From: a virus | IMG/VR virus record: IMGVR_UViG_3300017765_000059 | Coordinates: 1 to 24,099 of that record | DNA: 24,099 bases | Reading direction: 5' to 3' (one strand) | Part shown: positions 104-9,422 of the stretch, in pieces | How the letters are laid out: every line of letters begins with the position of its first letter | Numbering within the stretch: the stretch's first letter is position 1 | Notes under the pieces: model-generated | The model's database searches: none | Told to the model about the DNA's origin: nothing | Seen by the model: the letters and a program-made list of their open reading frames with translations, nothing else | Translations under genes and position numbers: made by a program

Positions 104-354
104 TATGGAACCTCTTCCTCAACAACAGGAGCGACGAACACATCCTCGTCAGCGTCGTAAGTGAAACCGATACCGGCGTAACGACCACGCCGGGAACCAA
201 GGTACGAGGTATCCATCCAGGTACCCGCTAAGCCAAGCCCGTTGCAGTAACCGGTAATTTCATTGTCGTTATCGTTGCAGTACGGGATCACGATGACTTC
301 CCGAACGATCCCGTCCTCCACGCGAACCGCGTGAGCATTATCAGAGTGTGCCAT
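103..354 (-). CDS. Small tail-associated protein with YAGIGFTYD motif
   Basis: An 83-residue protein with a good ribosome site (GAAGAGGAAAA) directly before ATG 354. The N-terminal half is a short beta segment (REVIVIPY) followed by an acidic stretch. The C-terminal half carries a TSYLGSRRGRYAGIGFTYD block followed by ADEDVFVAP. That arrangement (TSY, then R, YAG-G-TYD, D-F--P) is one I recognise from small proteins near tail-fibre genes of many marine and freshwater phages, where the role is unassigned. It follows the glycine-rich adhesin genes, so a virion or fibre-associated role is the best guess. The C-terminus is very acidic (VVEEEVP). Confidence 0.8.
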   Translation of the reverse strand: MAHSDNAHAVRVEDGIVREVIVIPYCNDNDNEITGYCNGLGLAGTWMDTSYLGSRRGRYAGIGFTYDADEDVFVAPVVEEEVP

Positions 355-365
355 TTTTCCTCTTC

Positions 366-2024
366 CTAGATTGCGTACCTAAGAATTACGATTCCGCTGC
401 CACCGTTGCCACCTGCAGATGAACCACCAGAACCCGCACCTGATCCTGTGTTCACAGAACCATCGCCGCCTGTCGTCGCAGAACCTGCGCCGCCTCCACC
501 AGAGCCACCCGCGCCATGCGCAAAAGCACCATTAGCACCGCCGCCTCCTCCCCGAGTGACGGACGAGCCCGTAATGCTTGAAGCAACTCCGTTACCACCA
601 TCGCCGCCTTCACGAGTAGACGAGTCAGAGCCGTCCTCGCCAACTTGCCCTGCACCACCTCCACCGCCACCACATTGGCTTCCTCCCGAACCACCAGAAA
701 AACCACCTGCCGTGGTAACACCAGGAGTGACCGTTACGTCGCCACCACCACCACCAGAACCACCGTCGCGTCCAATGCCACGGTTAGTAGACCCACCGCC
801 GCCAACTGCCCAAAACTCTCCTAGCCGTGACTGCAATCCGTTGCTGCTGTCTGCGGTCGTGCTTGATCCAGCACCACCCGCGCCAATAGTGACCGTGTAA
901 GTATCGGGTGCGAAGTAAAGTTGCTTCTCAAAATACTGTCCTGCCCCACCGCCGCCGGAAGGCCCCTTAGCGCCGCCTCCACCACCGCCGATGACAACAG
1001 AGTCTACGAAGCCAGCCGCGCTCACAGTCAGCGAACCAGAAGAAGTAAACGAGTGAACCTTGTACGACTGACCAGCGACACCATTCGCTCCATCACCCGT
1101 GTAAGTAGTTTCCGTGCCACCAGTCGCTACGACACCCGCAGCAGAGCCACCGATGATCGTTCGTACCACGATGATCCCTGAGCCACCAGCACCACCAGCA
1201 ACGGAAGCACTACCACTATTGTAAGCAGCACCACCTCCACCGCCAGTATTCACAGTAGCGGCTGTGCCCGTTGCTCCGGCTAACGCAGCACCGCCGCCAC
1301 CAGCGCCGCCTGCACCCTTGGTCGTGCCGTAGCCACCGCCACCGCCACCATACGTTTGTGCGCTGCCTGTTTGCAGCGAAGATGCTTGACCTGCCCCGCC
1401 TGCGCCACCCGTGGTTCCGCTACCTGCCGCGCCCACGGCTCCGGCACCGCCTCCACCACCTGAGCCTTGACCCGCGCTCGTGCTGCTTACGCCTGCTCCG
1501 CCGTCATTTCCTTGGCCGGTAACCCCAATGCCGGGATTTTTGCTTGCGTTCGTGTGCGTGTTGCCGCCACCACCCGACGCTCCCGAAAGCCCACCGTAGT
1601 AGCCACCAACGTCCGCTACGTCGTAGCCCCCGCCAAGGCCGCCACCAAAAGCAAACAACTCACCAACGCGACTACTCGTGCCCAGCCCTGCACCCGCAGC
1701 AGCACCCGCACCGATGGTTACTGTGACTGCTCCCGGTTCAAGAAAATGTGAGCCGACCTCAATGACTCCTCCGGCTCCACCGCCACCTCCACCGTAAAAC
1801 TGACCTGACGCTCCTGCACCCCCACCGCCAACGACAAGAACATCAACGACACCGCTAGATGCGACAGTCAAAGTGCCAGACGCGGTGAATGTGTGGACTC
1901 CATAGGTGGTTGATCCACTTGTGTACGTCGTGTAAGTGCCACCAGAAAGTTGAGCAAACCGACCCGCCGAAGGGACTGTTGATCCCGCGCCAAGAGTCGC
2001 TTCAGATAACCGTTGAATACTCAT
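366..2024 (-). CDS. Glycine-rich tail adhesin with two tandem domains
   Basis: A 552-residue protein made almost wholly of two copies of one glycine-rich domain. Copy 1 (about residues 33-290) and copy 2 (about 302-552) each begin with a beta-rich head (YGVHTFTASGTLTV and YKVHSFTSSGSLTV), then V-D-VV-GGGGG, then long runs of GGGGG blocks, and end GGSGIIVVR or GGSGIVILRY. This matches the glycine-rich domain common in phage tail proteins; comparable glycine-rich stretches in phage S16 gp38 pack as polyglycine-II helices at the fibre tip. A host-receptor adhesin or fibre-tip role is therefore inferred. ATG 2024 overlaps the stop of the upstream paralogue (ATGA), so the two are probably translationally coupled. 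Confidence 0.85.
   Translation of the reverse strand: MSIQRLSEATLGAGSTVPSAGRFAQLSGGTYTTYTSGSTTYGVHTFTASGTLTVASSGVVDVLVVGGGGAGASGQFYGGGGGGAGGVIEVGSHFLEPGAVTVTIGAGAAAGAGLGTSSRVGELFAFGGGLGGGYDVADVGGYYGGLSGASGGGGNTHTNASKNPGIGVTGQGNDGGAGVSSTSAGQGSGGGGGAGAVGAAGSGTTGGAGGAGQASSLQTGSAQTYGGGGGGYGTTKGAGGAGGGGAALAGATGTAATVNTGGGGGAAYNSGSASVAGGAGGSGIIVVRTIIGGSAAGVVATGGTETTYTGDGANGVAGQSYKVHSFTSSGSLTVSAAGFVDSVVIGGGGGGAKGPSGGGGAGQYFEKQLYFAPDTYTVTIGAGGAGSSTTADSSNGLQSRLGEFWAVGGGGSTNRGIGRDGGSGGGGGDVTVTPGVTTAGGFSGGSGGSQCGGGGGGAGQVGEDGSDSSTREGGDGGNGVASSITGSSVTRGGGGGANGAFAHGAGGSGGGGAGSATTGGDGSVNTGSGAGSGGSSAGGNGGSGIVILRYAI
369..1121 (-). repeat. Glycine-rich domain, copy 2
   Basis: Second copy of the roughly 250-residue glycine-rich domain in the adhesin gene. 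It starts near TETTYTGDGANG and ends GGSGIVILRY. Boundaries are approximate, set by matching the V-HSFTSSGSLTV head and GGSGIV tail to the other copies. Confidence 0.7.
1155..1928 (-). repeat. Glycine-rich domain, copy 1
   Basis: First copy within the same adhesin gene, from TYTSGSTTYGVHTF to GGSGIIVVRT. It aligns by eye with the copy downstream in the same gene and with the single copy in the upstream paralogue. Boundaries are approximate. Confidence 0.7.
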
Positions 2025-2887
2025 GCTGTCCTCACTCGTACAACAACTATTCCGCTGCCGCCTGCGCCGCCAGATCCGGTCGGGTGATTCGCAAACTCAG
2101 ACCCACCGCCCCCGCCACCCGTGTTTGCTGTGCCTGCCGTGCCGCTAGACGACCCTCCAGTTGCACCCGCACCGCCGCCACCGGAACCACCAGCACCAGC
2201 AGTTGATCCATTACCTGCACCGCCTCCACCACCCGCGTAGGTGACGGATGAGCCTGTGAACTCATTGGCTAGGCCTGCGCCTCCTGCGCCGCCAACGTTG
2301 CTGGCTGCGCCTGTGCCGACTGCGCCAGCACCGCCACCTCCACCGCCCGCTCCGTTGTGAACACCCGCACCGCCGTTATTGCCTTGGCCAGATACGCCTG
2401 CTCCACCCGCTTGAGCAGCCTGATCGGAACCAGCACCGCCGCCGCCAGAACCACCGGGGGCAGCGGCATAGTTCAGAGCCGTATCTCGTGTGCCTGCCGC
2501 GCCGCCCCCGACCGCGTAGTACGAGCCGCAGCGTGAAGCAGAACCGGGAAGGCTATTGAATGTGTTGTTCTGCGTAGTGCCTCCGGCCCCAACGACAATC
2601 GTTTGGCTTCCTGATGTGAGGTACGCACCGGATACGACTAGCATCCCGCCTGCGCCACCGCCGCCCCCCGCGCTTGCTGAGTTTGTGCCGCCGCCTGCGC
2701 CTCCGGCCACAAGCATTATGTCGGCAAGGCCAGCGGTGGTCACGTTCAGAGAACCTGATGCCGTCAGCGTGTAGAAACTGTACGAGGCAGACCCAGACGT
2801 ATACGTCCCCGTAGGCGTATCGCTAATCACCGCGTTACCAGGCACAGAACCAATCAACCCAGATCCGCTGAACGAACTCATCGTCAT
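2021..2887 (-). CDS. Glycine-rich tail adhesin, single domain
   Basis: A 288-residue protein with the same glycine-rich domain as the downstream gene, once only: head TYTSGSASYSFYTLTASGS at about residue 29, then L-D-MLVAGGAGG, Gly-rich core, and end GGSGIVVVRVRTA. The open frame extends to 2980, but the first 31 codons overlap the previous gene and encode an Arg/Cys-rich sequence with no similarity to phage proteins. I start at ATG 2887, one base after the previous TAA, with GGAG ten bases upstream; ATG 2881 is an alternative. The role is inferred to be host recognition, as part of a fibre tip built from three related domains. Confidence 0.83.
   Translation of the reverse strand: MTMSSFSGSGLIGSVPGNAVISDTPTGTYTSGSASYSFYTLTASGSLNVTTAGLADIMLVAGGAGGGTNSASAGGGGGAGGMLVVSGAYLTSGSQTIVVGAGGTTQNNTFNSLPGSASRCGSYYAVGGGAAGTRDTALNYAAAPGGSGGGGAGSDQAAQAGGAGVSGQGNNGGAGVHNGAGGGGGGAGAVGTGAASNVGGAGGAGLANEFTGSSVTYAGGGGGAGNGSTAGAGGSGGGGAGATGGSSSGTAGTANTGGGGGGSEFANHPTGSGGAGGSGIVVVRVRTA
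2024..2806 (-). repeat. Glycine-rich domain, copy 3
   Basis: The single copy in the 288-residue paralogue, the third copy in this window. It shares the TYTSG head, the V/L-D-LVAGG core entry and the GGSGIVVVR ending with the other two. Gene duplication followed by internal duplication or fusion is the simplest explanation. Confidence 0.7.
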
Positions 2888-2888
2888 G

Positions 2889-3221
2889 TTATGTAATCTC
2901 CGAGAGGAAGGCCGAGAACGCAATAGTGTTCGCTGAACTAGACACCCGCAGGTACTTAGACGCAGGCATCGTGATACCAAGCGTCAACGCCACCGTGTCA
3001 TTACCGGCAACGATCGCGTCATACACGAGAAACTCAGAAGCACCCGGTGTACCCTCTGTTGCGTCCAAGCCAATCCGCACCGTGATAGCCGATGACGACT
3101 GGTTGCAGATCACGAGGGAAGAGATGACCGCCTCAGTCGAACCAGGGGTCGTGTACAAGGTGGCAAACGTCCCAACGGCTGCCGTGCCCTGCACCTGTGC
3201 ATATTTGTAGGCTGTCGCCAT
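2889..3221 (-). CDS. Small beta-rich virion protein
   Basis: A 110-residue protein, mostly alternating hydrophobic beta strands (AVISSLVICNQSSSAITVRI, TVALTLGITMPASKYLRV, NTIAFSAFLSEI). The pattern, in which strands carry NQSSSAITVRIGL and the end has YLRVSSSANTIAFSAF, resembles small single-domain beta-sandwich proteins next to fibre genes in many phages. It lies between the fibre and the glycine-rich adhesins, so it may be a fibre cap, collar or trimerisation protein; the function is not established. Residue 1 is ATG 3221, four bases after the fibre gene stop. Confidence 0.75.
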   Translation of the reverse strand: MATAYKYAQVQGTAAVGTFATLYTTPGSTEAVISSLVICNQSSSAITVRIGLDATEGTPGASEFLVYDAIVAGNDTVALTLGITMPASKYLRVSSSANTIAFSAFLSEIT

Positions 3222-3225
3222 TGTC

Positions 3226-4311
3226 TTACGCTCCCATCAAAAAGAAAACATCTTGCAATCCTGCGCCGCCACCTGTGGACGCAGACCATTTCAACCCTGT
3301 CGCTTCCGCTGAGTCAGCGGTAAGCACGAACGTGTCAGTCCCGACAGCCAAACGAGCAGCCGTGTTATCGGCAGACCCAACGATCAGGTCACCCTTAGCG
3401 TCAATCAGTGTTTCTGAAATGCCAGTCGAACTGTCAACGAGTTGCCAAGCCGACCCGTTCCACACCTTCATCTCGTTTGATGTGGTATTGAACACGAGGG
3501 CTCCGGTAACCAAAGCGTCGCCATCGTTGTCGGTTCCGGGATCGGACGACTTGGCCCCCAAATACCGATCATCGAAAGAATCGTACGATGCTGCTGCCGA
3601 CGTGGCGCTCGACGCTGCCGCTGTCGCACTCGACGCGGCACCTGTGGCAGACGTAGCCGCCGCAGTCGCAGACGTAGCAGCAGCAGTAGCCGAACTAGCC
3701 GCAGCAGTAGCGTTCGACGCGCCAGTCGCGATAACCGAATCGACGTAAGCCTTCGTGCTTGCATCTTGCGCCGCTGTCGGATCACCCAACCCCGTGATCT
3801 TGTTCGTTCCAGCAGCCAAAGCACCACCAAGAGTGGCGCTCGTGATTGTCTGGCCCGACAAGGTTGCCCCACCCGACAGTGTGCCGCTCAAAGTCGCAGC
3901 ATTGATTGTCGGGCTGGTCAGGGTCTTATTCGTCAGCGTTTGCGAAGTGTCAGTTCCAACAACGCTCGCCGACGATCCAATGTCGTGAACATTGGCTGCC
4001 GCAGCCTGATGGCTGCGCTGATCCGTGAAGTCCAGGGCGGAGACACCATGCTCGACCGACGTGCCAGCCGAGTGAGTACGTCCCGAAGTGCCGTCCACAC
4101 CACGAGTAATCTGAAAGTTGCTGCCAGCAAGAGACGTGACCGTGACGATCTCTTCATTAGCACTGTCCTTCTCCAAGATCAGCGTGTACGGGTAACTGGA
4201 CGGGAAGCCGCTAGATGAGGCTACCGTCAACGCCGTGTCCGTCGCACTAATTGACCCCGAGAGGGTGGTGGTGACCGCCGTAGATGAATAATACCGAGCA
4301 GGAGTTCCCAT
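3226..4311 (-). CDS. Tail fibre protein with alanine-rich heptad stalk
   Basis: A 361-residue modular fibre. Residues 17-95 form a beta module ending QITRGVDGTSGRTH and AGTSVEHG. Residues 120-165 contain TLTNKTLTSPTINAATLSG, a strand repeat typical of fibre shafts. KITGLGDPTAAQDASTKAYVD (171-191) is a very common phage fibre motif. Six alanine-rich heptads (199-240) form the likely trimeric coiled stalk. YLGAKSSDPGTDNDGD then ALVFNTTSNEMKVWNGSAW (250-289) is another recurrent fibre module, followed by a beta-rich C-terminus ending in a Gly linker (TGGGAGLQ). Start ATG 4311 has GAGGTAACGC directly upstream. It is inferred to attach to the tail, possibly through the adjacent adaptor. Confidence 0.88.
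   Translation of the reverse strand: MGTPARYYSSTAVTTTLSGSISATDTALTVASSSGFPSSYPYTLILEKDSANEEIVTVTSLAGSNFQITRGVDGTSGRTHSAGTSVEHGVSALDFTDQRSHQAAAANVHDIGSSASVVGTDTSQTLTNKTLTSPTINAATLSGTLSGGATLSGQTITSATLGGALAAGTNKITGLGDPTAAQDASTKAYVDSVIATGASNATAAASSATAAATSATAAATSATGAASSATAAASSATSAAASYDSFDDRYLGAKSSDPGTDNDGDALVTGALVFNTTSNEMKVWNGSAWQLVDSSTGISETLIDAKGDLIVGSADNTAARLAVGTDTFVLTADSAEATGLKWSASTGGGAGLQDVFFLMGA
3592..3717 (-). repeat. Six 21-base (7-residue) tandem repeats in fibre stalk
   Basis: Residues 199-240 of the fibre read as six consecutive heptads: SNATAAA, SSATAAA, TSATAAA, TSATGAA, SSATAAA and SSATSAA. At DNA level the units are imperfect. An in-register array of this kind can expand or contract by recombination and so change stalk length. 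Confidence 0.85.
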
Positions 4312-4314
4312 GCG

Positions 4315-5208
4315 TTACCTCGCGTATTGAATGATTGACAAGTAGTTGTCTTGCTGCTTCGCTTTTTCTTCCGCCAAGCGAACGTTGAACAACTGATACA
4401 AGTATCGAGCAACCGACGTTGAGTCGCCGGGGCCGATTGGGGTATCCACCAAATCGGCGGATGGAGTCGTTGCCACCACCTTGCCCGGGTCGATAGTAGA
4501 AACTAGACGCCACATAGCACCAAAGCGAATAACGTCCTCGGCGGAGGCGGGCAGCCCTGTGGTTGAATAAAAGTCATCGGTGTCGGCAGACAACGCGGTG
4601 GGGTACTTCGCGTACTGAACGCGAACATTCCGCCCAGGCATCGGGTATTCCATCAAGACAATAGCAGCGCGAACCGTCGAGGTATCACCCGTTGCTCGGT
4701 AGTTACGATCAATTCGATATCTCTTGATAAGAGGCCAGACCTCGGTTGAGTCAGGTGCATTCCAGGCGACACCCGTGACATCCTGGAAATCTGTCGGCAT
4801 TGCGTAAGCGTACTGAGTCCCATCAAACTCAAACTCGTGAGAAGAAAGCGCACGCAGGTCAATTCCCCGAATGGTGTCGTTGATTGCTCGCCGCACTTGG
4901 TCACGAGGAAACGTCGGATTGTTTCGCAGGATTGTGTTGACGCTATGTGCGCTGGCAGTTGTTCCGCGCCACCCTCGACCGCCCGGAAGAACCGAAACGG
5001 TGCCAGCGGTCTGATTCACAGACTTGATGTAAATGAGTTCGTCACCGATCTCTACGACGCCGCGACTCAGGCTGCTCGCATCGTCCACAGTCAAGGTCGT
5101 TTCCGAGTCAGTCGCAGTCTGCGTTATTACTGTGATCGCTTCCTGGTTTCTGACGTACGAAGATACTTCTGCAAGAGTATCCTCAATAATTTCTAAAAAT
5201 GTGCTCAC
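4315..5208 (-). CDS. Probable head-tail adaptor protein
   Basis: A 297-residue protein. An N-terminal helix (MSTFLEIIEDTLAEVSSYV) is followed by a beta module (about 38-94: TLTVDDASSL, GDELIYIKSV, LPGGRGWRGTTASAHS), then a helical, adaptor-like region (FPRDQVRRAINDTIRGIDLR and a C-terminal helix with YLYQLFNVRLAEEKAKQQ). Helical N- and C-terminal parts around a beta insertion, plus placement between the small connector-region genes and the fibre, resemble adaptor proteins of podovirus SU10-type necks, which sit between portal and tail. This assignment rests on pattern and context, not on a search. The GTG start at 5208 overlaps the previous TGA (GTGA), indicating coupling. Confidence 0.7.
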   Translation of the reverse strand: MSTFLEIIEDTLAEVSSYVRNQEAITVITQTATDSETTLTVDDASSLSRGVVEIGDELIYIKSVNQTAGTVSVLPGGRGWRGTTASAHSVNTILRNNPTFPRDQVRRAINDTIRGIDLRALSSHEFEFDGTQYAYAMPTDFQDVTGVAWNAPDSTEVWPLIKRYRIDRNYRATGDTSTVRAAIVLMEYPMPGRNVRVQYAKYPTALSADTDDFYSTTGLPASAEDVIRFGAMWRLVSTIDPGKVVATTPSADLVDTPIGPGDSTSVARYLYQLFNVRLAEEKAKQQDNYLSIIQYAR

Positions 5209-6314: not shown

Positions 6315-7481
6315 CTAGATGCTGGACGTGCAGTTGATGACGTAGCGAGCCTCTGGCCGGTAAATATTCCAGCCGCGCAATCCCTTGTATCCGACAGAGC
6401 GGAACCGCATCAACTTATCGGTGATGGGTGAGATTACTGTCTTCGGTTCGTACGACACTGCTTCCAGAAGGGCCTGCTTACCCATGACGACCACCTTGTG
6501 ATCGAGTGAGGTAACGGTACCCGACGCCGAGGTAGACGACACGTTCGACGCAGTTTTTGCGTAAGTGAACGTGGTCGCCGACGGGGCCGACGCGACGGTG
6601 AACGAACCGTTGAAGGTTGCGTCCACGCCAGCGACGGTCACAGTCTCGCCAACCTCAAAGCCGTGAGCGGCAGAGGTGGTCAGGGTCGCAACATTGCTCG
6701 TCAGAGCCTTGTTGCTGACCGTGCGCGTCACACCATTGGATACCTGCTCTACACGAGCAGACTCGATGAACTTGACGCCTTCGTAGACACCAACCTCACC
6801 GTTCCAGATGTTGCCCACACCAGTGTCGGTGTAGGTGTGCGGCTCACGCCACACGTTTGCTCCCGAAGTCGCAGCCTCCGTGCGGAGGTCGTACGAGGTA
6901 TCCGGGTGCAACATGCCGATGTAGAAGCCACCGTCGCGGGGTTGGACGCTTGCGCCACGCAACTTAGCCACAGCCTTGCGGATATCCGCAGCCTGCAACG
7001 TGGTTGTTGACGCTGTGGTCTTGTCCACACCGTTTACGGTGGTCTCGTCGTCAGCGGACGTTCCTGCGAAACGACCAGTCGCCAGACCAACGAGGGTCTT
7101 GTAAACCAGTGCGTCAAATGAATCCCGCATATTGTAACTGAGCAAGTCGGCCACTGCTGGATCAATCGCAGAGAGCGACTCAAGTGCGAGACGCTCAGTC
7201 GTGGTAACGGCGTTACCATATTCGTTGACGGTTACCTGAACCCGGTTGGTGTTGTTGAGCGCAACAGCACTAACGTCCGAAGTCTCGGTCAAAGGATCTG
7301 TAATCCGAGATAGGTCGTTGTGAAGTTGGAACACAACAGTTGCACCGGGGTTGGTAACGTCAACCGGGCGGACGTCCGCAAACTTGCGGAACATCGGCTC
7401 GCTGCGCAGATTGAACTGCACATATTTGTCGTACGCTGTCTGAATTAGATTAGTCAGCGTACTAGTTGACGTGTCAGCCAT
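6315..7481 (-). CDS. Major capsid protein, N4-gp56-like, with inserted beta-domain
   Basis: A 388-residue protein of the HK97-fold type best matched to the N4-gp56 capsid family. The N-terminus (TLTNLIQTAYDKYVQFNLRSEPMFRKFADV) contains the typical helix and RS-P-F motif. VTVNEYGNAVTTTERLALES (83-102), an FYIGMLHPDTSYDLR block (186-200), GEVGVYEGVKFIES (228-241) and a final GYKGLRGWNIYRPEARYVI also fit. Residues about 253-325 interrupt the family pattern between IESARV and HKVVVMGKQALLEAV with a separate beta module. It follows the scaffold gene by 36 bases with an AAAGGG site, and ends in a double stop (TAGTAA). High expression is expected and fits the stem-loop after it. Confidence 0.9.
   Translation of the reverse strand: MADTSTSTLTNLIQTAYDKYVQFNLRSEPMFRKFADVRPVDVTNPGATVVFQLHNDLSRITDPLTETSDVSAVALNNTNRVQVTVNEYGNAVTTTERLALESLSAIDPAVADLLSYNMRDSFDALVYKTLVGLATGRFAGTSADDETTVNGVDKTTASTTTLQAADIRKAVAKLRGASVQPRDGGFYIGMLHPDTSYDLRTEAATSGANVWREPHTYTDTGVGNIWNGEVGVYEGVKFIESARVEQVSNGVTRTVSNKALTSNVATLTTSAAHGFEVGETVTVAGVDATFNGSFTVASAPSATTFTYAKTASNVSSTSASGTVTSLDHKVVVMGKQALLEAVSYEPKTVISPITDKLMRFRSVGYKGLRGWNIYRPEARYVINCTSSI
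6507..6725 (-). other. Ig-like or beta insertion within the capsid protein
   Basis: Codons 253-325 encode a Thr/Ser/Val-rich module containing VATLTTSAAHGFEVGETVTV, then AGVDATFNGSFTVA and ATTFTYAKTASNV. The H-G-F-VG--V-V-G-----NG-FTV----TFTYA pattern recurs in many phage structural proteins as a small beta domain. The flanking residues rejoin into the usual N4-gp56 order, so this is most simply an inserted domain likely displayed on the capsid surface. Confidence 0.7.
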
Positions 7482-7517: not shown

Positions 7518-7958
7518 TCAGCCCTTCAGGATCGCCTGCAACTCCTCTGGAGTTGAGGCAGCCTGGATTTTTGCTTCCAGACTTGACCCCACAGTGGGGT
7601 CGATGCCGCCTTCCTCTACGGCTGACATCAGTTCGGCGGCTTGAACGGACTCAGGCTTTTGGTTACCCTCGTCGTCCATGGCCTCAACGCCGAACACCTC
7701 CCCGTACTCACCGATCCACTCTTCGAGATCGTCCATATCCTCGACTTCATCGGGGACAAACGCAGCAACTCTAGGGTTGACACCCATCTCTTGCAACGCT
7801 TCGCCAATCTCATCTTCGCGGCTCACGGCTAAGAACTCGTTGAGGTACTCGTCGCGCTCCTTTACTGCAGCGGAGAGTTCTTTCACCTGCTTTCGCAGGT
7901 CTTTGACCAGATCAGTTCCCTGATCTTCGTCGTAGTCGAACTCGTCGTATTCGGCCAT
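7518..7958 (-). CDS. Probable capsid scaffolding protein
   Basis: A 146-residue, highly acidic protein (MAEYDEFDYDEDQ start) with a predicted coiled coil (about 16-45: DLVKDLRKQVKELSAAVKER) and an acidic helical C-terminal region, directly upstream of the capsid gene. Composition, size and position are those of phage scaffolds, which guide capsid assembly and leave before DNA packaging. I choose ATG 7958 because GGGAG lies seven bases upstream; the open frame extends to 8024, but that stretch lies in the structured leader and has no ribosome site. No protease motif is seen. Confidence 0.85.
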   Translation of the reverse strand: MAEYDEFDYDEDQGTDLVKDLRKQVKELSAAVKERDEYLNEFLAVSREDEIGEALQEMGVNPRVAAFVPDEVEDMDDLEEWIGEYGEVFGVEAMDDEGNQKPESVQAAELMSAVEEGGIDPTVGSSLEAKIQAASTPEELQAILKG

Positions 7959-8089
7959 TTCAACTCCCTTTTCTCGTATGGCCCATCTCGGGTTGCACTC
8001 TCCCGCACGCCTGGCAAGGGGCACCAGGAGTGGCTGAGAATGACTATCGGACTTGTACGCCCGCCGGGGCCGACCGATCCGGCTAGGGG

Positions 8090-8164
8090 TGGATGTGCCC
8101 GGAATCGAACCGGGGTTAGGTGGGCAACTCTCTGGCTGCTCGGCACCTCTGACCTGTCACACCC
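8090..8164 (-). tRNA. tRNA-like element lacking normal D and anticodon arms
   Basis: A 75-base element on the minus strand. GGGTGTG (8164-8158) pairs with CACATCC (8097-8091) over all seven positions (one G-U), followed by discriminator A at 8090. A perfect 5-bp T stem encloses a consensus seven-base T-loop TTCGATT (8114-8098). The middle does not fold as a cloverleaf: no seven-base anticodon loop with a stem is found, and the D stem (GGTC with GAGC) has a mismatch. Instead AGGTG/CACCT (8148-8144 with 8122-8118) and GCAGC/GTTGC (8139-8135 with 8128-8124) form one long arm. No CCA is encoded (ACCCC follows). It is either a degenerate tRNA or a tRNA mimic in the capsid leader; I doubt it is charged and used in decoding. 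Confidence 0.45.
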
Positions 8165-8170
8165 GACAGG
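8153..8170 (-). promoter_or_regulatory. 6-bp hairpin competing with the tRNA-like acceptor stem
   Basis: CCTGTC (8170-8165) and GACAGG (8158-8153) are perfect inverted repeats around the loop GGGTGT (8164-8159). That loop is nearly all of the 5' acceptor strand of the tRNA-like element, so the two folds exclude each other. The hairpin begins one base after the stop of the upstream gene. No T run follows. Confidence 0.55.
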
Positions 8171-8171
8171 A

Positions 8172-9422
8172 CTAAACGTCCTGCATACGCCTCAATGAAC
8201 TACTATCCAGTGCAGATTCCGCACTGAATGCCGCACGCTCACGCGAAGCAAACTTGCGGCGACGACGACCGGACTCAACGCCACCCGTCAAATTCAAGGA
8301 CTCCTTCACTAAATCCTTGAAATCTAAAGGCTCACCGTAAAGAGATCCGAGTCTTTGTAGATCTGGTTCCGCTGCTCCAGCGAACTGGAACGCTTCGTCA
8401 GCACGATCTGCCTTACCCAAGTCAACAATCTCTTCAGCCATTTCTCGACCGACTCCTAGGCCCTGACGTCCAGCCATACCGCCGACTTCAGAGGTGGAGT
8501 AGATCCGCTGCAACTCGTCCGCGCTGTTCAAGCCAAACGGGCTCTGAGAAGCGCGAGCGTTCAAGATTGGCTCTGCCCGAGTTGGGTCGAGCAGGTAAGC
8601 AACCAGATCGCTCTTAGTCAAGTTGTAAAAATTCTGAAGACTGCTCACAACGGACGGGTCTGCCTGGTTGAGAGCAGAAGCAGCAGTGTCCACACGTGAA
8701 GCAAACTCTGTTGCGCTGATGCTGTTAGCAATCAGGTTGGTAAAATCATCCGGCGAGTCGTAGAAACCTTCCGGCATCGAGCGTTGCTGGAGAGTGGTTC
8801 GGTACGTATTCTCCAAGTCTATGTACTCTTTTGGAGACAACATGCGGTCGCCAGGACGCCCTTGACCGTCAGCAATACGTTGACGAATAGCCTCGTTTGC
8901 CTTGAACCGCTGCTTGTACGCATCCGAGTTGTAAATCGTGTTCAAGATCTGACCCTCAGACGGGTCAATGTTGGCAGCGTACACTTGGTCAATCGTTGAC
9001 AATAGGCGATCCACGAACGCGGGATCGAGTCCTGCGTTACGGAATATGGCTGCTGCATCTTCCCCAGCGGACTTGTCTGTGTACGAGTCAATGACTTCTT
9101 GTGAGCCGTCAGAGTAGTACGCAATAACCTGAACAACGCCACCGTAGGTGCGCTTGGTTTGCGTTGATGTCAGCGTGCGAGGCGGTGCAGGGGGAGGAAC
9201 GTTGTTTGCCTGGAAAAATCCGGGAGGAGGGTCATAGTCACCAGGCGTAAAAGTCCCTGGGCCGCCTCCAGCCGGGAACGTAATGCTTGGTGCCTGACCG
9301 TAATCAACGAACCCAGGTTCGGTTGTTGATCCCCCAAGATCAATCGGTGTTGGGTCACGCAAGAAATCCATGATAGAGCCGAAGCCCAAGTCCCGAAATT
9401 CCTGCTCATAATGATTAGGCAT
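8172..9422 (-). CDS. Uncharacterised virion protein, 416 residues
   Basis: Third of three consecutive structural genes ahead of the scaffold. A Gly/Pro-rich N-terminal third (about 45-85, with PPPAPPR) is followed by a short beta segment (GGVVQVIAYYSDGSQEV) and a long alpha-helical body. Residues 200-243 (YIDLENTYRTTLQQRSMPEGFY, then LIANSISATEFASRV) have the look of the helical DUF4214-type repeat, but this is a weak resemblance. The C-terminus is basic and ends RRRRKFASRERAAFSAESAL. The mature role is unknown; an internal or tail virion protein is inferred from position. Confidence 0.75.
   Translation of the reverse strand: MPNHYEQEFRDLGFGSIMDFLRDPTPIDLGGSTTEPGFVDYGQAPSITFPAGGGPGTFTPGDYDPPPGFFQANNVPPPAPPRTLTSTQTKRTYGGVVQVIAYYSDGSQEVIDSYTDKSAGEDAAAIFRNAGLDPAFVDRLLSTIDQVYAANIDPSEGQILNTIYNSDAYKQRFKANEAIRQRIADGQGRPGDRMLSPKEYIDLENTYRTTLQQRSMPEGFYDSPDDFTNLIANSISATEFASRVDTAASALNQADPSVVSSLQNFYNLTKSDLVAYLLDPTRAEPILNARASQSPFGLNSADELQRIYSTSEVGGMAGRQGLGVGREMAEEIVDLGKADRADEAFQFAGAAEPDLQRLGSLYGEPLDFKDLVKESLNLTGGVESGRRRRKFASRERAAFSAESALDSSSLRRMQDV

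Follow-up and report, generated by a model that had tools for sequence, protein, structure and literature searches.

A probable tmRNA reduced to its tRNA-like domain directly upstream of the capsid genes of a virus, and its counterparts in other phages

The window analyzed in this work, i.e., a stretch of viral DNA of 24,099 nucleotides (IMG/VR record IMGVR_UViG_3300017765_000059), carries a tRNA-like structure directly before its scaffold and capsid genes, which raises the question of what kind of RNA it is and what it could do at this place. The initial annotation delimited a 75-base element with a 7-bp acceptor stem and a T-arm with a TTCGATT loop, and this proved correct to the base, the same structure being the minimum free energy (MFE) fold obtained with exact ends. 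The features of the locus are listed below (TLD, tRNA-like domain; SD, Shine-Dalgarno sequence).

8172-9422, minus strand: upstream gene (phrog_8424, function unknown); the element lies between its stop and the scaffold-position gene
8166-8184, minus strand: hairpin that precedes the element on its 5' side and covers the stop codon of gene 8172-9422, predicted in the majority of TLD-bearing relatives
8090-8164, minus strand: whole element, TLD-only tmRNA-like RNA
8158-8164, minus strand: acceptor 5' strand GGGUGUG, with G3 at 8162 (7/7 pairs, covarying)
8149-8157, minus strand: single-stranded D-loop analogue ACAGGUCAG, with GG 3 bases past the acceptor, tmRNA-like
8118-8148, minus strand: central two-part arm (P2-like helix and capping hairpin) replacing the message domain, as seen in the fold
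8098-8114, minus strand: T-arm CCCGG-UUCGAUU-CCGGG (two-sided changes in 4/5 pairs)
8091-8097, minus strand: acceptor 3' strand CACAUCC, with U70 at 8093 pairing with G3 (G-U in 30/31 relatives)
8090, minus strand: discriminator A73, followed by C
7998-8086, minus strand: leader of the scaffold gene, a distinct element made up of a stem, a pseudoknot (8070-8074 with 8046-8050) and a CCCC-loop hairpin
7518-7958, minus strand: downstream gene phrog_7813, at the capsid scaffold position (ATG 7958, SD GGGAG 7964-7968)
6315-7481, minus strand: major capsid gene (phrog_1357), next after the phrog_7813 gene

From its 5' end at 8164 to its 3' end (A73) at 8090, the element reads on the minus strand GGGTGTG ACAGGTCAG AGGTGCCGAGCAGCCAGAGAGTTGCCCACCT AAC CCCGG TTCGATT CCGGG CACATCC A, then CCCC. 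Therefore, the window copy encodes no CCA (A-CCC), as was noted initially, although a subfamily of relatives (L032, L034, L045, and L048) does encode it. The exact-end MFE structure (-28.8 kcal/mol, z -2.1; 4 of 200 shuffles were as good) comprises the acceptor GGGUGUG/CACAUCC with seven of seven pairs, the unpaired ACAGGUCAG, the arm AGGUG...GCAGC-CAGAGA-GUUGC...CACCU, and the T-arm. The folding check suggested in the initial annotation thus gave a signal for the exact ends, but none for the flanked 116-nt segment, whose folding energy was ordinary on either strand, and since this flanked energy is unremarkable, energy alone is no proof of the element. The description of its centre as one long two-segment arm, with no D and anticodon arms, agrees with the MFE fold and with eight copies folded singly, which share one plan: an A(C/A)AGGT linker without a stem, then a single long arm in the centre. 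The D-stem and the 5-bp/7-nt anticodon arm of a canonical tRNA are absent from the window element, as are the pseudoknots and the tag reading frame with resume codon of a full tmRNA; for such a frame there is no room, because the acceptor closes within 75 nt.

For the comparison of the locus, 28 contigs were fetched on the basis of a capsid-protein scan. Some 20 related contigs carry the element at the same locus, strongly marked by compensatory changes, the acceptors of relatives being GGGTGTG/CACATCC, GGGCGCG/CGCGTCC, GGGCGTG/CACGTCC, or GGGCATG/CATGTCC and their T-stems CCCGG/CCGGG or TCCAG/CTGGA. In 31 aligned sequences, some of which came from patterns constraining the acceptor, 99.5% of the cells at 12 pairs were paired and two-sided changes were present in 74 cells vs. 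17.9 in shuffles, a signal that was abolished by sliding the register; the covariation in related phages for which the initial annotation had proposed to search is thus evident. Moreover, the first scan, constraining only the D-region and the T-arm, returned intact acceptors throughout, and the T-stem was left free in later scans; over all loci at the relaxed-scan stage, the full acceptor was found in 115 of 116 distinct sequences and the T-stem in all 116. The GG of the D-loop analogue is invariant in alignment A2, and the spacing to GG is the same in the family on which the covariance model described below (R2) is based.

These data bear directly on one of the initial proposals, namely that the element derives from a host tRNA that was captured and has decayed, here remaining in a tRNA hot spot. 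It is true that tRNA genes occur at this locus: Streptomyces phage Manuel (L030 1494-3359) has 19 annotated ones at the syntenic place, between the pre-scaffold gene and the scaffold gene (a TLD search in this phage matched only its own tRNAs, weakly), and contig L014 has a tRNA-Ile(gat) there. L014, however, carries the TLD element alongside this ordinary tRNA. Decay is also contradicted by the compensatory changes and the strong pairing constraint that they reflect, by the tmRNA-type GG spacing, by the retained alanine identity, and by the better performance of the tmRNA model over the tRNA model on relatives (both discussed below), and relatives with the pairing broken at neutral rates were not seen. 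This explanation is therefore strongly disfavoured and extremely improbable.

The class of the element was assessed with covariance models. The training set of model R2 consisted of 26 RNAs that have the tmRNA D-loop GGUUUCGAC, none of them from the group of the window, and these RNAs show covariation in every helix, including the lower helix of the central arm. The model recognized 8090-8164 in the window with exact ends (37 bits, E 3.6e-8), while the next window match reached 12.9 bits; relatives scored 27-65 bits and ordinary phage tRNAs 23.5 bits or less. The Rfam tmRNA model (RF00023), searched alone, spans 1-374 on L053, L086, L036, and L080 (34.5, 31.5, 29.5, and 25.1 bits, E 6e-14 to 5e-10, all below the gathering score of 47), for which the Rfam tRNA model gave 13.3 bits, no match, 21.8 bits, and no match, respectively. 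Neither of the two Rfam models matched four other records (the closest relative, L002, among them) or, because it is too diverged, the window copy, even at E 10. ARAGORN, suggested in the initial annotation, and Rfam likewise gave no report in the window. Two other candidates were rejected, i.e., a permuted tmRNA at 7955-8114 (Rfam, 17.4 bits), in which the real T-arm is paired with the ribosome-binding site and start of the scaffold gene, and a tRNA-Sec match in the window (15.3 bits), considered background.

The following features of a TLD-only tmRNA were found in the window element: the 7-bp acceptor with G3-U70 and A73, the T-arm with a TTCRANT loop, the stemless D-region with GG 3-6 nt past the acceptor, and the P2-like helix with no message domain. 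Most members from the relaxed and free-acceptor scans have GGTTTCGAC 3-6 bases past the acceptor, with GGAC preceding the T-arm, and the full tmRNA of Streptomyces phage Yaboi has the same frame. The window D-loop (GGUCAGA) does not match GGUUUCGAC, which is usual in the family and was not an entry condition here, and its central arm is without the common AAAGCCGC..GCGGA core; D-loops intermediate between GGUUUCGAC and the window form are GGUUCGA, GGUGUGA, and GGUUAGA. We conclude that the window element is very probably a tmRNA reduced to its tRNA-like domain, so the initial comparison with this domain, which likewise has no normal D-arm, was apt. The presumed membership of the window copy in this class rests on R2 and on same-locus intermediates such as L036. 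Binding of SmpB by the window copy is not assured, given its diverged D-loop and its arm without the common core.

Standard tmRNAs (RF00023, e.g., that of Yaboi) share with the element the G3-U70 acceptor, A73, a stemless D-loop near the acceptor, the P2 helix, and the T-arm, but they are about 280 (Yaboi) to 370 nt long, whereas the window element has 75 nt, no tag frame, and no pseudoknots. Permuted tmRNAs (RF04321; cyanophage S-CAM1 and the crAss-like cr7_1) are alike in the kind of T-arm and the acceptor 3' end, and the acceptor of the cr7_1 RNA (GGGCGTG/CACGTCC) is identical to that of several TLDs; they differ in the reversed order of the halves and in the presence of the message part. 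In S-CAM1 (L162, near 700-760), the permuted tmRNA is apparently unannotated, with the T-arm half followed by the GGGGGTG..GGTTTCGAC half. Canonical tRNAs, including tRNA-Ala (RF00005), have the acceptor, the T-arm, the G3-U70 wobble, and A73 in common with the element, but have a D-stem and an anticodon arm, neither of which it possesses. Mycobacteriophage DS6A has the closest described form, a TLD-only tmRNA (type "standard, no CDS", with only 9 sequences in the tmRNA database); the class is likened by description. The window copy differs in its diverged D-loop and arm, in having no encoded CCA, and in adjoining capsid genes.

A free-acceptor scan, in which only GGTTTCGAY, GRAC, and the T-loop were specified and both acceptor and discriminator were unconstrained, gave 94 acceptable TLDs, with G3-U70 in 93, A73 in all 94, and C74 in 88, and with acceptor positions 4-6 varying freely. 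Pair 3-70 of the window element is also a G·U wobble, and a subfamily with G3-C70 (L032, L034, and L048) occurs in its group. In tmRNAs, the third acceptor pair is a completely conserved G-U, a determinant for alanyl-tRNA synthetase, and the deformed D-arm touches SmpB (PMC3985003). G3·U70 and A73 are the alanine identity marks common to tmRNA and tRNA-Ala, and the element is likely to be charged with alanine.

Altogether, TLD-only RNAs were found at no fewer than 205 viral loci (at least 142 distinct sequences), and because several loci can come from a single contig, the contigs are slightly fewer. With a strict pattern, 44 viral stretches were obtained, but no match among 84,980 prokaryote genomes; a relaxed one yielded at least 120 stretches in viral contigs and 46 matches in prokaryote genomes, about 8 of which were judged by eye to be TLDs. 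The distance from the acceptor to AGGT separates most ordinary tRNAs (8-10) from TLD RNAs (2-3). Patterns of the D-region and T-arm added nine contigs, including one HK97-type phage with the element between the prohead protease and the capsid. A DNA-level BLAST search of 7900-8300 against named phages gave no match. With one member as the BLAST query, matches were obtained in 82 named Streptomyces phages (those opened belong to the Stanwilliamsviridae), in which the copies are unannotated and, in the six opened, lie within a tRNA array between tRNA-Val and tRNA-Leu. Phages LuckySocke, GiJojo, and pSt2308 carry another form of TLD. ARAGORN calls overlapped the elements of 5 of the 205 loci, four of them as tRNA-Ile or tRNA-Cys; TLD-only RNAs are almost always missed by ARAGORN and the Rfam thresholds.

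Most of the remaining prokaryote matches appear to be tRNAs whose D-arms are very short, mainly from Patescibacteria, where L276, L277, L284, L290, L294, L318, and others have tRNA-like genes of 66-69 nt with a very short D-stem (GCAGGTTTGC). L105, L141, and L151 were excluded as tRNA-like; the last one has, at 4351-4416 on the strand opposite to that deposited, a 66-nt tRNA-like RNA that lacks the D-arm and has a G3-U70 wobble and what may be an anticodon loop with CCA. Furthermore, in a contig of Actinomadura violacea (L311, approx. 169-3418), a tRNA array resembling those of phages occurs together with a high-scoring TLD-only RNA (77.6 bits).

In 63 representative loci, the first downstream gene was a window-type scaffold gene in 13, an HK97 capsid gene (PF05065) in 12, and a PF25209 capsid gene in 3, the latter two counts possibly overlapping. 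The HK97-type capsids near TLDs mostly share 32-91% identity among themselves and have no similarity to the window capsid, so the placement of a TLD before the capsid arose at least twice. No tRNA was found by ARAGORN within 2 kb in 170 of the 205 loci, several of which are short fragments. In the window capsid itself (6315-7481, minus strand), residues ~225-325 form a segment that matches other phage proteins alone, seems absent in L016-L018, and looks like an inserted surface domain.

Such a position invites the reading, also put forward in the initial annotation, that the tRNA-like fold only recruits RNase P and a 3' enzyme, splitting the capsid message from the upstream one. It is consistent with the fact that the element immediately precedes the scaffold and capsid genes on the mRNA, with the similar placement before HK97 capsid genes, and with the hairpin and the structured leader: after cleavage, the upstream message would have the hairpin at its new 3' end, and the downstream one the leader at its new 5' end. 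This leader, unmatched in Rfam, has its pseudoknot paired in 97.9% of cells in 19 relatives (with one covarying pair), and the CCCC loop of its two-tier hairpin is complementary to the SD (AAGGGAG), with which it could pair. It is nevertheless independent of the TLD, being kept in the close relatives L012 and L013, from which the element is cleanly absent, and this speaks against a punctuation role. Moreover, G3-U70 and A73 should be dispensable for processing, yet they are nearly invariant, and the Streptomyces phage copies sit inside ordinary tRNA arrays, where cleavage sites are already supplied by the tRNAs. The release of the scaffold-capsid message is thus possible as a consequence of excision, but unlikely as the main role.

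We consider it fairly probable, as a whole, that a TLD-only tmRNA in the late operon is excised, charged, and used as an antagonist of the host tmRNA. According to this explanation, RNase P would cut the late transcript, which carries the RNA directly upstream of the scaffold and capsid genes, at 8164, 3' processing would occur at 8090, and a CCA tail would be added to the excised RNA. The alanyl-tRNA synthetase of the host would then charge it, and EF-Tu and SmpB would bind it; lacking a message, it would compete for them with the host tmRNA. The tagging of proteins from stalled ribosomes, and their degradation, would thereby be damped during the burst of capsid synthesis, and, as a side effect of excision, the capsid mRNA would start at a new 5' end.

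A literature search for phage tmRNA decoys found only DS6A. The primary paper on the inhibition by its form is reportedly that of Mao et al. (2009). The DS6A form itself was reported to inhibit tmRNA (PMC11915505), and a TLD-only molecule like that of DS6A strongly inhibits tmRNA whether chargeable or not, perhaps via titration of SmpB (PMC4131195). By this analogy, the chances that tmRNA antagonism is the main role of the element are about even. There are points against a decoy: some carriers, namely Streptomyces phages of the Karimacvirus type, encode a full tmRNA, likewise a target of the decoy, and copies of the L032 type have G3-C70. In two such phages (L156 and L403), the full tmRNA lies at ~97 kb and the unannotated TLD-only RNA at ~86-88 kb.

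The main puzzle is that alanine identity is kept although titration of SmpB should not need charging, and this leaves room for a role in tagless rescue, where a charged TLD with host SmpB would take over the nascent chain in stalled ribosomes and recycle them with no degradation mark. Tagless mitochondrial tmRNAs are retained together with SmpB (PMC11915505), which would fit such a role, whereas the element has neither a resume codon nor a stop and the inhibition reported for a similar molecule (PMC4131195) points the other way; we regard tagless rescue as doubtful. The same low probability is given to its broader version, in which many unrelated phages would use an alanyl-charged TLD and host SmpB, timed with the capsid mRNA, to replace trans-translation late in infection and not merely to block it. 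A tRNA-shaped RNA that occurs in many phages, does not decode, and is predicted to be chargeable could also serve as a decoy for a defence system or toxin targeting tRNA acceptors or alanyl-tRNA, or as an alanine donor for a tRNA-dependent ligase. This is very unlikely, as most family members have a D-loop of the tmRNA type, which suggests SmpB instead, and an unsystematic inspection revealed no ligase, toxin, or defence gene linked to the RNA.

As a kind, the TLD-only phage tmRNA is already known from DS6A. What is new is its wide spread (in the literature searched, one phage and a handful of database entries, compared with over 200 viral loci here), a diverged subfamily lacking the usual D-loop, the repeated place before capsid genes, the presence of TLD-only RNA alongside a full tmRNA in the same phages, and the evidence for kept alanine identity. 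The named Streptomyces carriers grow on laboratory hosts, and since disruption of ssrA and smpB is feasible in Streptomyces (PMC2635970), a direct test is possible. In E. coli, the plating of lambda-immP22 drops about 10,000-fold when tmRNA or SmpB is missing (PMC2862035). Manipulating trans-translation may be a common strategy of phages, invisible to annotation tools.
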